A DNA stretch of 41,946 nucleotides from a virus. Positions 31,672-40,551 of this stretch are shown here, in pieces. A model generated the notes under the pieces. That model saw nothing but the letters and a program-made list of their open reading frames with translations, did no database searches and was not told the DNA's origin. Positions within the stretch are counted from its first letter, which is position 1. Each line of letters begins with the position of its first letter. The stretch covers positions 1-41,946 of the IMG/VR virus record IMGVR_UViG_3300027973_000090, one strand, 5' to 3'. Made by a program: the position numbers and the translations under genes.

Positions 31672-32229
31672 TTAGAGCAAATGACTTTTATCTTTATCCC
31701 CTGTTAATAATCTGTATGTATGCCAAATGTAGATGCTATCCATTCTTAGTATCGGCGTTCCTGCAGCACGCACCCGATTGGTGAAGTCGTTATCAACTCC
31801 AAGTAAGTTGTACGGTCCTCGATCTTCATAAACCTGTTTCTCTGCAAAGCCACCAACAGACGCCCACACCTTTTTCGGTATCACCATCAGAAAACCGGAA
31901 ACGAAACCGTGGAGTTGGGTGACGGATATTGGCTGTTCCTGTAAATACTTAGCTTGCTGTAGGTGTATTACCATATCCGATTCTTCCCGATCTATTAACC
32001 TGTACTGCTGCTCCGCCTTTTCATTTATACGATTAGTCCAGCACGTTAGTACCGCATCTGGGTATTGTTTTACATACTCCGCAATGTGCACCCCGTAATC
32101 AGGTGTTAAAAAACAAGTATCGCCGTCCATCATTACAGCAACGTCATCATCGCCGATTAGGTTCATGTATTGATTATAAGCAGCGCCCAGGTTTTTTTCT
32201 GTGCTGTATGGGGTGAAGTAGTATATCAT
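31672..32229 (-). CDS. Family 2-like glycosyltransferase (GT-A fold)
   Basis: A 185-residue protein with DDDVAVMMDGDTCFL, where the DGD metal-binding motif is at residues 35-37, a later IPKKVWASVGGFAE strand-helix typical of GT2 enzymes, and a C-terminal DNDFTNRVRAAG segment. The ATG at 32229 directly follows a terminator-like hairpin, so this is the first gene of the island. A longer frame upstream reads through the hairpin and is rejected. Confidence 0.8.
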   Translation of the reverse strand: MIYYFTPYSTEKNLGAAYNQYMNLIGDDDVAVMMDGDTCFLTPDYGVHIAEYVKQYPDAVLTCWTNRINEKAEQQYRLIDREESDMVIHLQQAKYLQEQPISVTQLHGFVSGFLMVIPKKVWASVGGFAEKQVYEDRGPYNLLGVDNDFTNRVRAAGTPILRMDSIYIWHTYRLLTGDKDKSHLL

Positions 32230-32341
32230 AAAATTAAAAAGCGCCTCACTCTTGGGGGAGATCAGCGCTTTAAAGATTTTTACTGCCCCCAAACAGTTTA
32301 CTTGGCTAAGTTAGTGTACTAATATTTATTATGCAAATTTA
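32230..32341 (-). promoter_or_regulatory. Leader with promoter-like site and loop-complementary terminator (leader B)
   Basis: On the minus strand TAAATTTG (32341-32334) matches the Bacteroidota -7 consensus. About 40 nt on is a small hairpin (ACTG/CAGT, 32297-32282) whose loop carries TTGGGGG. Then comes a terminator-like hairpin with AAAGCGC/GCGCTTT arms (32271-32265 and 32244-32238) and a U-rich tail ending at the ATG at 32229. The terminator loop contains CCCCCAA, exactly complementary over 7 nt to the upstream loop. No clear -33 TTTG was found at 19 bp. Confidence 0.6.
32231..32271 (-). terminator. Terminator-like hairpin just before the island
   Basis: A 7-bp arm AAAGCGC pairs with GCGCTTT, with a second short CTC/GAG stem inside, followed on the minus strand by TTTTTAATTTT and then the first island ATG. 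It separates terS from the island and could attenuate island transcription. Confidence 0.7.
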
Positions 32342-32701
32342 TTTTATAACCATGCCGGTAATGGGTACATCGTTTCCTTCTTTGTCGGTTAGTCCTGTTT
32401 CAACTTTGTCACGCCAGCCCATATTTTTGAGGGCAAATATTGCGCCGGTGGGCATATGCCCAGATAGCTTTTGCTCATAACACGATTCCACAAAAAATGT
32501 TGCTCTTTTTAAAATGTAAGAAAACTCTTTTCTTTCTTTATAATCATATATACTTTGACGGCTATCAAAACCAAGCGCATAAGATAACCCGGTAATTGTT
32601 ATAGGTTCTTTTTTTTCTATCTGTTTATCAAAATAATCCTGTATAGCAATTGATAATTGCTCAGATGTTTCAAATTTTAATGGTCTGCCTTCTTTTGCCA
32701 T
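32339..32701 (-). CDS. Terminase small subunit
   Basis: A 120-residue DNA-packaging protein resembling small terminases of Bacteroidota phages: a GRPLKF opening, EQLSIAIQDYF, the TGLSYALGF / DSRQSIYDYKER helix-turn-helix, and GAIFALKNMGWRDK near the C-terminus. It would recognise the packaging site and recruit TerL, whose gene is 7.5 kb downstream, which is an unusual separation. It is preceded by the repeat array. A TATCTTAG promoter-like site lies 5-12 bp before its ATG. Confidence 0.8.
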   Translation of the reverse strand: MAKEGRPLKFETSEQLSIAIQDYFDKQIEKKEPITITGLSYALGFDSRQSIYDYKERKEFSYILKRATFFVESCYEQKLSGHMPTGAIFALKNMGWRDKVETGLTDKEGNDVPITGMVIK

Positions 32702-32993
32702 ACTGCTAAGATAGTAAATTTTTACAACACCGTGCCTTTCTTAATTCCCGAGTTTTACCGAGTTTTACCATTAGTTTTACTGTTTTTACTTTATAACTAT
32801 TTGAATGTCTTGAAGTTGTACCAGTTTTACCACTTTTACCATAGTTGTATATATCCCTCACCCTATTATTTACTAAATTTATATAGAATATATTACTTTT
32901 ATCTCTTAGAGTTTTAGTAAAAGTGGTAAAACTCCACGCCAGTAGCTGGTTTAGATAGTAAAACTATAGTAAAACTAAGTAAAACTGACGCAC
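32702..32993. repeat. Gene-free region with GTTTTAC / GTAAAAC repeat array
   Basis: The left half has GTTTTAC at 32752, 32762, 32774 and 32824, with near copies at 32784 and 32833. GAGTTTTACC is repeated in tandem at 32750 and 32760. The right half has the inverse GTAAAAC at 32926, 32958, 32969 and 32979, spaced 10-11 bp at the end, plus GTAAAAG at 32917. Between them is an AT-rich stretch of about 75 bp. No gene is credible here. It is bounded by a terminator on the right and terS on the left. It is a candidate replication origin or operator cluster. Confidence 0.75.
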
Positions 32994-33022
32994 AAAAAAG
33001 CCCATATTTTCAAGATACGGGC
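32994..33022 (-). terminator. Strong rho-independent terminator after the replication block
   Basis: On the minus strand GCCCGTAT pairs with ATATGGGC (one G-U pair) around a 7-nt loop, directly followed by six T residues. It lies 24 bp after the primase/helicase stop and would end early transcription before the terS promoter region. Confidence 0.85.
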
Positions 33023-33045: not shown

Positions 33046-35280
33046 TTATATTTTTTGGTAAACAGCATATTCCAATTTTCGGAATAATGCTTTAAAATCC
33101 TTTCTTCGCATGCTTGTTTCAAACTTTTGCGGCGGTAAATTTAGCCGTTTACAAACCTCTACGGCGTCAGATCTTTTAAATGTTTCCGGCAAAGATTGAT
33201 AAAGTAATTCAAGTGCAGCAGGCAATCCCGTTTCAACTTCTTCAGAAAGTTTTGCTATAATATTTATAGTTGATTTAGCAAAGTATTTATATAAAATATG
33301 GGCATCTTCAACTATTTTTTTGGTAATTACCGGTTTTTTTGGGTTATGTATAATTGAAAGAAGTTGCACCAACCTGGGGAAGTATGCCGACATCTTAGCT
33401 TCAGTACCGATAATATACTGCTCAGTCTTGCTTAATATGCGCTTGTTAGCGTCCTTTAAGTTTTCCTTATAAAAGTACCGGTAAGCCTGCTTTGCGTCAT
33501 TTTCAATAGGTATTTCAATCTGCTGAATATCTCCATTATTATACAGTTGGCCTTGCTGATATAGTATTGATAATAAATCTACCCACTGACTACACATTTC
33601 TTTGTTTTTGGCAAATGGATCTATTTCAGTATTTAATTCGATATAATCAGTTTCAACCATAATAAACCGGCTGGCAAAACCGCTGCTAAGCCGGTCAGAA
33701 GTAAATATATTTCCTAACCTTGATGGCTGCGTTCCCATCATCAGGTTAATATTTAAGTTTGGTACTACCCTTTCTTTATCCCTATCTGCCCGTATCTGAG
33801 TAAACCGGCCCCCACTAAAGCACTGCGTAAAGAAACTGATTGAATCATTAGTACCTTTAAAGGAACCGGCGTTGAATATTGTTTCAGCTTCGTCATGGTA
33901 AACACCTATCCCATTTGGCTGATCCATTGATAAAGCTACATAACCCTCAGTGGTGCCATCAACCGCAAACGGAATAAACCTGCGGGGCTTCTTTTCATTT
34001 GACTTATCGTTATCCGACCGCCTTGCCTCGTATTCTTTTAATGCTGCACTGTAGTTTTTATCAGCGTTTTCCTGTAATGCTTTTAATGGTGTTTCACACA
34101 TTGACTTAAAAGCCGGTGTTTTACCAACAGATACTGGCGCAATAAGTAAGCAGAATAAAATGTTTTTAGCATCCCCGTTAAACTCACTTGTATAATGAGT
34201 CCCGGCCATGCTGCTAACTGTCCATAAAGCTGATACCGCCAAAAACTCAGGTGCTAAACTACGGGCCTGTGATACCTCTAAAATAGAATTTCTGATTGCT
34301 GCTGGGAATACATCAATAGGGAAATCACCTTTATAGGCTTCCGTCTGATTAATTATCAATCCTTCGCTGTCAGCAATAATTTGCATTTGCTCAAAGGTAG
34401 CTTTCCAATCCCGATTATTTTTATAGAAAAGTACAAATGATGGCGGTAAACACCACACCGGGTATTCATGTTTATTATGCCAGTTTGGGAAATCATGCAG
34501 GCTGGCAGAAAATATCATTACTCTTTTGGTATGAAAATAAACCTTGGCACTGATGGCTGATGATTCGCTGCCATTACGACTGAAAGCCACAAACTTATCT
34601 TTTGCGCTGTATTTGTAATTTGGCAATGGAACTAAAGAAATATCCTTTAAAATTTGCAGCCATGTATCCTCATTTATTTTACTGTCAAATTCGGCACAAA
34701 ATTTTTCCATACCTACAGGATATGAAACGGCCTTTAAATTCGGATCATATTTTGGTTTATACTCATTAAAATATTGTGATGTTTCAATAAGGTAGGCAAA
34801 TTCGTTATCAGTTAATGGCTGCAAATCTTCCATTGACCCACTTACTTCTGAATACCCAGGCGTTGGATATGTATAAACTAATGGCCCACCTGCATAAAGG
34901 GCTATTACTTCAGCACCTAAATCACTATCTGCTAAAGATAATTTATTAAGTTCTTTATTGTAGTGCATCCAAACGTGGTAACCATCATTCCGAGTTTTTT
35001 CGATGTAAAGTTTTGGTAATACATCCGGCATTTGATTCGCAACAATATTGAACCATTTAAAATACAGATTTTTATCCTTAGTATTTTTAATGTCAAAATC
35101 TAAACAATGTACCGGCGAAGTGGTTTTAATCATGATGGCATTATGCTTTGCATAAAAATCCAATGACTTGCCATCACCCCAAAACCGATGCGATAACGGT
35201 TTTTTATTTTCAATATCCCATTCAATTGGTATTACAGATAGTCCGATTTCTTTGTAAGAATCGTAATAATTTTTAACCAT
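33046..35280 (-). CDS. Primase / helicase (DUF3987-type)
   Basis: A 744-residue replication protein. The N-terminal 200 residues resemble an archaeo-eukaryotic primase (prim-pol) domain with a DFDIK acidic motif. The C-terminal half is a DUF3987-like helicase with a Walker A loop APVSVGKTPAF and a Walker B region GVYHDEAETIF, followed by MMGTQPSRLG and an SSGFASRF arginine segment. It would prime and unwind phage DNA. No phage DNA polymerase gene was found, so it probably uses the host enzyme. The start at 35280 is preferred to one 9 bp upstream that overlaps the previous stop. Confidence 0.85.
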   Translation of the reverse strand: MVKNYYDSYKEIGLSVIPIEWDIENKKPLSHRFWGDGKSLDFYAKHNAIMIKTTSPVHCLDFDIKNTKDKNLYFKWFNIVANQMPDVLPKLYIEKTRNDGYHVWMHYNKELNKLSLADSDLGAEVIALYAGGPLVYTYPTPGYSEVSGSMEDLQPLTDNEFAYLIETSQYFNEYKPKYDPNLKAVSYPVGMEKFCAEFDSKINEDTWLQILKDISLVPLPNYKYSAKDKFVAFSRNGSESSAISAKVYFHTKRVMIFSASLHDFPNWHNKHEYPVWCLPPSFVLFYKNNRDWKATFEQMQIIADSEGLIINQTEAYKGDFPIDVFPAAIRNSILEVSQARSLAPEFLAVSALWTVSSMAGTHYTSEFNGDAKNILFCLLIAPVSVGKTPAFKSMCETPLKALQENADKNYSAALKEYEARRSDNDKSNEKKPRRFIPFAVDGTTEGYVALSMDQPNGIGVYHDEAETIFNAGSFKGTNDSISFFTQCFSGGRFTQIRADRDKERVVPNLNINLMMGTQPSRLGNIFTSDRLSSGFASRFIMVETDYIELNTEIDPFAKNKEMCSQWVDLLSILYQQGQLYNNGDIQQIEIPIENDAKQAYRYFYKENLKDANKRILSKTEQYIIGTEAKMSAYFPRLVQLLSIIHNPKKPVITKKIVEDAHILYKYFAKSTINIIAKLSEEVETGLPAALELLYQSLPETFKRSDAVEVCKRLNLPPQKFETSMRRKDFKALFRKLEYAVYQKI

Positions 35281-35282
35281 AA

Positions 35283-35480
35283 TTACCATTTAAATTTTTC
35301 TGTTAAAGTTCTTATTATCTGATCTCCTTGCTCATAGTTATCAGCAATTCCGACAAGCTCAAACTGATTGATACTTTTTAAAAGTATTGACTTTATGTTG
35401 CCATTAATGTAATCAGCTAATGTTTCAATATGAAAGCATTTTTGTTGAGGAGAGTAAAGCACCGCAGTTTTATTACGCAT
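35283..35480 (-). CDS. Small protein after the leader terminator
   Basis: A 65-residue protein of unknown family: MRNKTAVLYSPQQKC, a middle helix and a C-terminal EQGDQIIRTL segment. The ATG at 35480 sits directly after a terminator U tract. An in-frame reading starts 37 codons upstream but would run through the hairpin, so it is rejected. It ends 2 bp before the helicase start, suggesting co-expression. Confidence 0.6.
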   Translation of the reverse strand: MRNKTAVLYSPQQKCFHIETLADYINGNIKSILLKSINQFELVGIADNYEQGDQIIRTLTEKFKW

Positions 35481-35523
35481 AAAATAAAAAAGGGCCTTGC
35501 AAGTAGTGCTGCAAAACCCTTTT
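35481..35523 (-). terminator. Strong terminator hairpin upstream of a start codon
   Basis: On the minus strand AAAAGGGTTTTGCA pairs with TGCAAGGCCCTTTT (14 bp including two G-U pairs) around an 8-nt loop and is followed by TTATTTT. The ATG of the next gene comes directly after. It is either an attenuator of that gene or the 3' end of a small RNA. Confidence 0.8.
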
Positions 35524-35585
35524 AAAACGTGAATATTAATCACTTCTCCCGCACTACCAAGTGAAGCAATTGTACTACAAATATA
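35481..35585 (-). promoter_or_regulatory. Leader with promoter-like site and loop-complementary terminator (leader A)
   Basis: On the minus strand TATATTTG (35585-35578) matches the -7 consensus. The leader forms hairpin 1 (TCACTT/AAGTGA, 35564-35540) with GTAGTGC in its loop (35557-35551). It then forms a terminator hairpin whose loop is GCACTACT (35509-35502), complementary to hairpin 1 over 7 nt. The RNA would be about 90 nt, ending at the ATG at 35480. No -33 TTTG at a good spacing was seen. Confidence 0.65.
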
Positions 35586-36273: not shown

Positions 36274-36478
36274 ACCAGTTAAAGGGTTTAGTTAATGAAA
36301 TTGGTTTATCTCTTATCATGCGATTTCGGCCTTTATGTAATCCTAATACATTACGATTTTGATACACTTTATTTTTAGTAGTTTTCAAAATTACTGCAAT
36401 TTTAGCATCACTTAATTTAAGCCAACTATCTTTTATGAACTGCTGATCTGATTCTGGTAGTGTTGGATGGTGTTGCAT
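36260..36478 (-). CDS. Small helix-turn-helix-like protein
   Basis: A 72-residue protein. DQQFIKDSWLKLSDAKIAVI followed by TKNKVYQNRNVLGL looks like a Myb/HTH-type DNA-binding helix set. It lies 7 bp after an intergenic hairpin and is translated with the nuclease. A regulatory or terminase-like accessory role is possible, but the family is not firmly recognised. Confidence 0.55.
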   Translation of the reverse strand: MQHHPTLPESDQQFIKDSWLKLSDAKIAVILKTTKNKVYQNRNVLGLHKGRNRMIRDKPISLTKPFNWYDCF

Positions 36479-36487
36479 AATATTTAA

Positions 36488-36508
36488 CCCCGTCCATTAC
36501 GAACGGGG
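36488..36508 (-). terminator. Intergenic hairpin after the SSB-like gene
   Basis: CCCCGT and ACGGGG form a 6-bp stem with a 9-nt loop. The minus-strand continuation TTAAATATT is only weakly U-rich and leads straight to the next ATG. It resembles the hairpin after the capsid gene in both stem and distance to the start. Confidence 0.55.
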
Positions 36509-36515
36509 TGAGTGA

Positions 36516-36827: not shown

Positions 36828-36995
36828 CTAACTGTTTACTGAATTAAGTTGTGTGTCAATTACATTATGAGCAGCTTTAATGCTATTAAGTGCCATACAT
36901 GAACCTGTAATATTGTAATACGTTGTATGTCCTTGCCCGGCGGTCAATAAGCATATTTCATATCCTTTGTATGTTTCTATAATTTTCCGGCGCAT
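36828..36995 (-). CDS. Small protein (55 residues)
   Basis: An open frame from ATG to TAG: MRRKIIETYKGYEICLL, then HTTYYNITGSCMALNSIKAA. A short beta-hairpin plus helix is likely. Similar small proteins of unknown function are frequent in Bacteroidota phages (recollection). It fills the gap between the Sak4-like and SSB-like genes. Confidence 0.55.
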   Translation of the reverse strand: MRRKIIETYKGYEICLLTAGQGHTTYYNITGSCMALNSIKAAHNVIDTQLNSVNS

Positions 36996-37042
36996 AAATT
37001 AAATTACCCGGATATACCGCCGGGCCGGTTCAATCACTGCGA

Positions 37043-39934: not shown

Positions 39935-40551
39935 GTTGTTTGTTTTGGGTAAGGTAATATTTCATACCTTAATTTATTTAATAATTGTTTTTTACGTTTT
40001 TTATTTGCGTTAAAATAAACATATCTGTGCTTACGTGGACGATCAACCAAAGTAAATTTATCGCCATACTTTTCTCTTATTTCAACTGCTGTATATTTAT
40101 CTGCAATTGTCTGGCAATGCTTATTAATTCCTTCAATTGTCTAGTTAGTACGTTTTGCAGATAATCCGGTATAAATCCAGTTAGTTGCTTGATATATTAC
40201 CCCTAAATGGCCTTGTTGAATTTCCGCATAACTTACAACTATCTCTTTACATACTTTATTAATTGTATTGCCGATTAAAAAACTTTCTCCGTTCTTTTCT
40301 ACAGTATCATAAACCTATAATTTATTTAACTCAATTACATTACTACTTTCTGAAATACCGCATAATCCTGTTCGTAATGATGATGATGAAGGTGTGCCAT
40401 ATACAATAACCCCTTTAATATCTTCGCCTAAAAATAATCCAAACGCAAAACTGCATGGACACTTACGGTGTAGATAATGTTTTTCAACTACTATATTCAT
40501 AGCCGTTTTGTATGCAATCTGTTTAATCTGGTATTTATCTTTTAAACTCAT
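39931..40551 (-). pseudogene. Mom-like adenine-modification gene with two in-frame TAG codons
   Basis: The frame runs 206 codons from ATG 40551 to TGA 39931, interrupted only by TAG at 40317-40315 (codon 79) and 40143-40141 (codon 137). Mom-like features are EKHYLHRKCPCSFAFGLF, VIVYGTPSSSS, EIVVSYAEIQQGH and YQATNWIYTGLSAKRTN. In the Mom-like proteins I recall, both TAG sites carry tryptophan (NRLW and KRTDW), so each could be one TGG to TAG change. No frameshift is present, and the end overlaps the next gene as ATGA. Mom-type enzymes modify adenine to evade restriction. It may be a pseudogene or a suppressed gene. Confidence 0.8.

Follow-up and report, generated by a model that had tools for sequence, protein, structure and literature searches.

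The window analysed here is the whole of an uncultivated phage record, 41,946 bases in length, whose long open frames lie on the minus strand. One leader, leader B, runs on that strand from 32341 to 32230 and takes up the interval from the small terminase gene (32339-32701, GP3_package) to the ATG at 32229 of a 185-aa glycosyltransferase gene (31672-32229, minus strand; phrog_14179, E 1e-18). This gene opens a co-directional run encoding glycosyltransferase-like, methyltransferase-like, DegT-like and GDP-mannose dehydratase-like proteins, and the label "glycan island" given to the region by the original prediction is therefore fair.

Read 5' to 3', leader B starts with TAAATTTG (32334-32341), a probable -33 promoter element, followed by TAACTTAG (32306-32313), a probable -7 box lying 8 nt 5' of the first hairpin. 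Hairpin 1 (32282-32297) reads ACTG-TTTGGGGG-CAGT; it was identified by sequence and fold, and its stem covaries in the relatives L052 and L003. Its loop carries kissing segment 1, TTGGGGG (32286-32292), which is complementary to 32252-32258 and changes together with it in orthologs. An A/T-rich linker of 10 nt, AAAAATCTTT (32272-32281), comes next; linkers across 40 leaders are 82% A+T. The terminator-like hairpin (32238-32271; fold -13.8 kcal/mol) contains a GAU/UGA internal loop, has compensated stem changes in L003, and displays kissing segment 2, CCCCCAA (32252-32258), in its loop by sequence. The T-tract, TTTTTAATTTT (32230-32240), abuts the ATG and contrasts with the A-rich start context usual in these phages. 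Each piece named in the original prediction, from the hairpin with TTGGGGG to the terminator hairpin with its 7-nt complement and the ending at an ATG, could thus be located on the minus strand. RNA folding recovers both hairpins; at z = 0.24, the fold energy of the leader as a whole is ordinary and is uninformative as evidence.

Leader A (35585 to 35481, minus strand) follows an identical plan. It consists of TATATTTG as the candidate -7 box (35578-35585), hairpin 1 (35540-35569) with segment GTAGTGC (35551-35557), a terminator-like hairpin (35488-35523; fold -18.5 kcal/mol) that is the top terminator-like site in the scanned half, with segment GCACTAC (35503-35509), and a T-tract (35481-35491) ending at the ATG at 35480. 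Behind it lie a 65-aa gene (phrog_6104) and a DUF3987 primase/helicase-like gene (33046-35480, minus strand). The A and B leaders of one phage carry different loop pairs. Between the primase and small terminase genes, 32720-33000 holds repeated TTTTAC/GTAAAA units, possibly a replication origin or a regulator site.

Bacteroides promoters have TAnnTTTG as their -7 consensus, with TTTG near -33 (PMC7366714). TAAATTTG is followed exactly 20 nt on by TAnnTTAG, as TAACTTAG in the window and as TATCTTAG and TACTTTAG in the relatives L052 and L244. Given this spacing, TAAATTTG is probably the -33 element of leader B and TAACTTAG its -7 box. The former lies 36 nt 5' of hairpin 1, while box-to-stem distances across 40 leaders span 0-12 nt, a range that includes the 8 nt of leader B. 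With TAACTTAG as the -7 box, hairpin 1 would form the 5' end of the RNA. The promoter-like site of the original prediction is thus present at 32341-32334, probably in the role of a -33 element and not of the -7 box. As a lone signal, TAnnTTTG shows no enrichment in the window (48 observed vs 62.5 expected).

Complementary loops across related phages

To score the layout we used a detector for a terminator stem with T-tract and ATG, an upstream hairpin loop complementing the terminator loop over 7 bases or more, and, no further than 50 nt away, a TAnnTTTG box. Its two matches in the window were leaders A and B. Among 300 dinucleotide shuffles of the window, 291 held no layout, nine held one and none held two; the original prediction, which was to fall if such loops arose at the chance rate in shuffled sequence, came through this comparison. 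For each leader taken singly, a 7-nt complement to the loop occurred in 162 of 20,000 shuffled tails for leader B (0.8%) and in 2.7% for leader A. On 1.55 Mb of related loci the detector found 37 matches (about 30 distinct leaders), compared with 1-7 per shuffle. The decisive evidence, beyond these shuffle statistics, is comparative.

Relatives of the primase, and of the nuclease-like gene that immediately precedes leader A, gave us many copies of this junction from which to collect leaders. Thirty-seven were chosen by position, box and T-tract, blind to complementarity, after we had discarded duplicates and false starts and manually shifted a few of the start positions; nine more were added by eye after the loops had been seen, for a total of 46, plus a fourth B leader. 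The apex of hairpin 1 was set by folding alone, and the longest Watson-Crick match to the downstream part was scored. Matches of at least 7 pairs were present in 32/37 blind-picked leaders and 39/46 overall, against 25 of 1760 cross-leader pairs with no shared apex 5-mer (1.4%) and about 3.5% of shuffled tails. Among the leaders falling below 7 pairs, the hairpin of L080 was misassigned by the folder, and several others score more pairs once a single G-U is tolerated. Thus 39 of the 46 leaders have two hairpin loops complementary over the roughly 6-8 nt typical of kissing-loop RNAs.

The letters of the loops change while their pairing is kept. B orthologs carry the loop pairs TTGGGGG/CCCCCAA, TCGGGAG/CTCCCGA and CCTGAAA/TTTCAGG. 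Comparing close pairs, taken as leaders at least 80% identical outside the loops, we found one double compensatory change between L007 (GTAGCAG) and L055 (GTAGGAG), two between L076 (GTAGAACC) and L098 (GTGAAACC), two between L075 and L098, two between the B leader of the window (TTGGGGG) and that of L052 (TCGGGAG), and one between L059 and L066, with zero broken pairs in all five comparisons. A sixth, L004/L008 (80%), has one double change, one broken pair and gaps; since each of these leaders is complementary by itself, we attribute the broken pair to alignment ambiguity. In a nine-leader alignment (A5), all 72 cells of the kissing helix are paired and 4 of its 8 positions have changed on both sides. 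The covariation score of the whole structure is 0.439, compared with 0.214 in shuffles (0/500 reach it) and 0.08-0.13 in slid versions. Counts for the B kissing helix in the stem-covariation alignment run low, the two loops there being aligned one base out of register. The fourth B ortholog, L244, whose glycosyltransferase is 62% identical and whose phage has the same glycan genes behind the leader, has a loop, GCCTGAAA, complementary to its terminator loop TTTCAGG over 7 bases. Complementarity maintained by covariation, a further mark of kissing-loop RNAs, is therefore found here.

These comparisons leave a next to negligible chance that the leaders are terminators with incidental 7-nt matches. 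The rates in shuffled tails and the ordinary fold energy of leader B are what such a reading would draw on; it is refuted by the 39/46 leaders that keep the match with different letters and by the compensatory changes. We are accordingly all but certain, from comparison of these sequences, that loop pairing is a conserved feature. The claim that this phage uses the same loop-complementary layout twice holds, and compensatory changes have preserved the loop complementarity in tens of related phages; for these reasons a shared RNA mechanism is very likely. To call leaders A and B unrelated, as the original prediction did, is too strong, because B terminators share the GAU/UGA internal loop with several A-type leaders of relatives. 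This 3x3 loop (tandem G-A type) lies directly beneath the kissing loop, both in B terminators and in several A-type terminators of relatives; it occurs at 32238-32271 (minus strand) and in L052, L003, L004, L008, L009, L054, L058 and L079, hinting at common descent or a protein site. Across 21 distinct loop pairs, kissing segment 1 is biased to G-U-R-G-N-A despite its varying letters.

Proposed transcription attenuation and its alternatives

Our favored model, to which we give somewhat better than even chances, is that the leaders are promoter-proximal transcription attenuators built as loop-loop (kissing) pseudoknots, with A preceding the replication operon and B the glycan operon. RNA polymerase would start just 5' of hairpin 1, which would then be the RNA 5' end. 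After the short A/U-rich linker would come an intrinsic terminator, its loop complementary to loop 1 over 7-8 bases. From the geometry of the RNA exit channel, segment 2 should emerge from the polymerase near the arrival at the T-tract; it ends 8-24 nt (median 18) before the terminator stem end. The kissing helix would thus form at about the moment of the stop/go choice and could tune it in one direction or the other, with a protein, an RNA or the stage of infection as candidate trigger. Stopping would leave a short leader RNA of roughly 65-110 nt ending before the ATG, and read-through would give the operon mRNA. Because only the loops are complementary, the two hairpins can coexist with the kissing helix, and no arm-swapping antiterminator is needed.

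The conserved, covarying loop pairing and the closeness of the box to stem 1 in 40 leaders argue for this model, and so does the position of the candidate terminator: it lies between the predicted promoter and the coding start in leaders A and B, before two operons, and in most other leaders. In these contigs, the start regions of 1,097 predicted genes are A-rich from -11 to -14 (A 0.49-0.65), whereas most leaders read TTTTTTATTTTATG or similar at that place; the T-tract departs from this usual context and fits a terminator. Detector matches on related loci have 8-23 nt between terminator stem end and ATG, with the T-tract nearly always running into the ATG. Against the model stand L010 and L011, exceptions that keep the kissing loops without a T-tract, and the lack of a partner gene tracking the leader, since comparison of gene presence and absence with leader presence gave no convincing candidate. 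When RNA through segment 2 was folded without pseudoknots, hairpin 1 stayed intact in only 11/40 leaders, mostly because the loop 1-loop 2 helix was preferred, which suggests an interaction strong enough to matter. Also against the model, linker length and helix length do not correlate over 40 leaders, and the shortest linkers would be stretched in a straight coaxial arrangement. A competing antiterminator hairpin is absent from leaders A and B and was seen only in one sub-cluster (L059, L061, L064, L065, L080, L085, L089 and others), where the 5' arm of the terminator makes a hairpin of its own (e.g. CGCC-TGAAA-GGCG) that would rival the terminator; the sub-cluster speaks for the model, and the absence from A and B against it.

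The same unit from promoter to terminator might alternatively produce a small, stable phage RNA with RNA or protein targets in trans; the gene behind it would then be reached by occasional read-through or from another promoter. Its own box, 5' hairpin, terminator and compact fold are compatible with this, and IsrK of Gifsy-1 offers a precedent for a terminated phage RNA with read-through (PMC4825925). We nonetheless think it unlikely, as a free-standing RNA gene does not need a T-tract that runs almost always straight into an ATG, and the unit precedes unrelated operons. That last point, together with the ordinary terminase genes of this phage, also led us to reject a phi29-type packaging RNA, whose loops likewise covary.

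Control of translation is rather less probable still. Here the hairpin before the AUG, stiffened by kissing, would hide or present the start site, and the T-tract would be simply an A/U-rich start region. L010 and L011 agree with such a role, hairpins ending about 16-21 nt before an ATG are common in these phages, and a loop pseudoknot switches translation of the replication gene in IncI-alpha plasmids (Asano and Mizobuchi 1998, as cited in PMC10724649). The start contexts speak against it, being A-rich at -11 to -14 where most leaders have T-tract.

Two further proposals place the pairing between molecules. In one, the leader RNA transcribed from a given genome copy would bind, in trans, nascent leaders that share its loop type, and so control copy number or exclusion in the manner of the P4 CI RNA or plasmid antisense RNAs. 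Loops that diverge fast yet stay self-complementary, the differing loop pairs of A and B, and the place of A-type leaders before replication genes would all suit this. Even so, we regard it as very improbable: both loops lie in one transcript, making cis pairing simpler, and no phage integrase was found in 27 contigs, some of them fragments (control genomes were positive), so that prophage immunity is unlikely. The other, a long shot as well, treats the leaders as RNA identity tags, a lineage-specific loop code by which a terminated RNA would recognize nascent leaders of its own kind in trans, metering replication or excluding sister phages. If true, it would amount to RNA-based copy-number or superinfection control in apparently lytic Bacteroidota phages.

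Known systems, distribution and hosts

Among known systems, the leader would work most like an attenuator. Leader attenuators (e.g. pT181; Novick 1989, as cited in PMC10724649) likewise consist of box, structured leader, terminator and ORF, with stop or read-through setting expression. They differ in that here the loop of the terminator pairs with an upstream hairpin loop of the same RNA, and the window holds no competing antiterminator hairpin. Plasmid kissing RNAs and loop pseudoknots (ColE1, I-complex plasmids, ColIb-P9 repZ; PMC10724649) share fully complementary, lineage-diverging loops before a replication gene; in the present case both loops are on one strand and transcript, one of them in a terminator. 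P4 CI RNA immunity (PMC4825925) shares a phage leader RNA with complementary segments and premature termination before replication genes, whereas P4 is temperate and uses a processed antisense RNA, and the pairing here is loop-restricted at 7-8 bp. We did not file the leaders under either of these two, because no antisense RNA is known here and the temperate lifestyle that goes with RNA-based immunity of the P4 CI/c4 kind did not show in the integrase search. Type III toxin-antitoxin RNAs such as AbiF RCd22 (PMC12373285) resemble the leaders in promoter, RNA of about 100-130 nt, terminator and gene with read-through; glycosyltransferase and primase operons, not toxin genes, stand behind the terminators here, and the abiF motif had no match in the Rfam scans. 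Rfam 15 gave nothing above gathering in the window and no credible relaxed match over the leaders, and a limited search of open-access literature found no described element of this layout.

Taken with the covariation, this suggests that the leader is probably a real, undescribed RNA switch: a strongly covarying structure that has no Rfam entry and is placed before the replication genes of an uncultivated phage group. Its loop pair behaves as an exchangeable code and is suited to asking whether loop-loop pairing gates an intrinsic terminator. The leaders also offer a handle on how Bacteroidota phages may time their replication and glycan-modification genes.

A-type leaders are widespread and occur about once per phage, at the junction from nuclease to replication gene, in contigs fetched whole or nearly so. 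The B leader is rare, being found in four phages only, the window and three relatives. At L052:3817-4000, a short additional ORF separates the glycosyltransferase gene from leader B; leader B is therefore tied to the operon start and not to one gene. Nineteen loci (three distinct sequences, some on the same contig) have the primase directly after the nuclease, without a leader; TATATTTG at these loci is also nuclease coding sequence and may not act as a promoter. A search with the B terminator pattern matched only the L052 contig itself. The sole match to a one-loop-pair pattern in a clearly different phage, L234, is without the leader layout, and a match in a host contig, L143, was dropped as it had no A-locus context.

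In the named-phage collection there was no close match at the DNA level; the nuclease matched nothing there, and the primase had three matches, all weak. A Sphingobacteriales MAG contig (L132) carries a nuclease relative of 59% identity, a finding that together with the promoter type points to Bacteroidota as hosts. Elsewhere in the window, 40315-40551 (minus strand) encodes a short protein of the Mom-like DNA modification type, which matches PF25680 (E 3.5e-12) over the initial part of the profile only. At many operon junctions of these phages, as at 36995-37025 and 36478-36510 on the minus strand of the window and at many sites in L180-L231, the ATG follows about 10-21 nt after the end of a plain hairpin without kissing loops.
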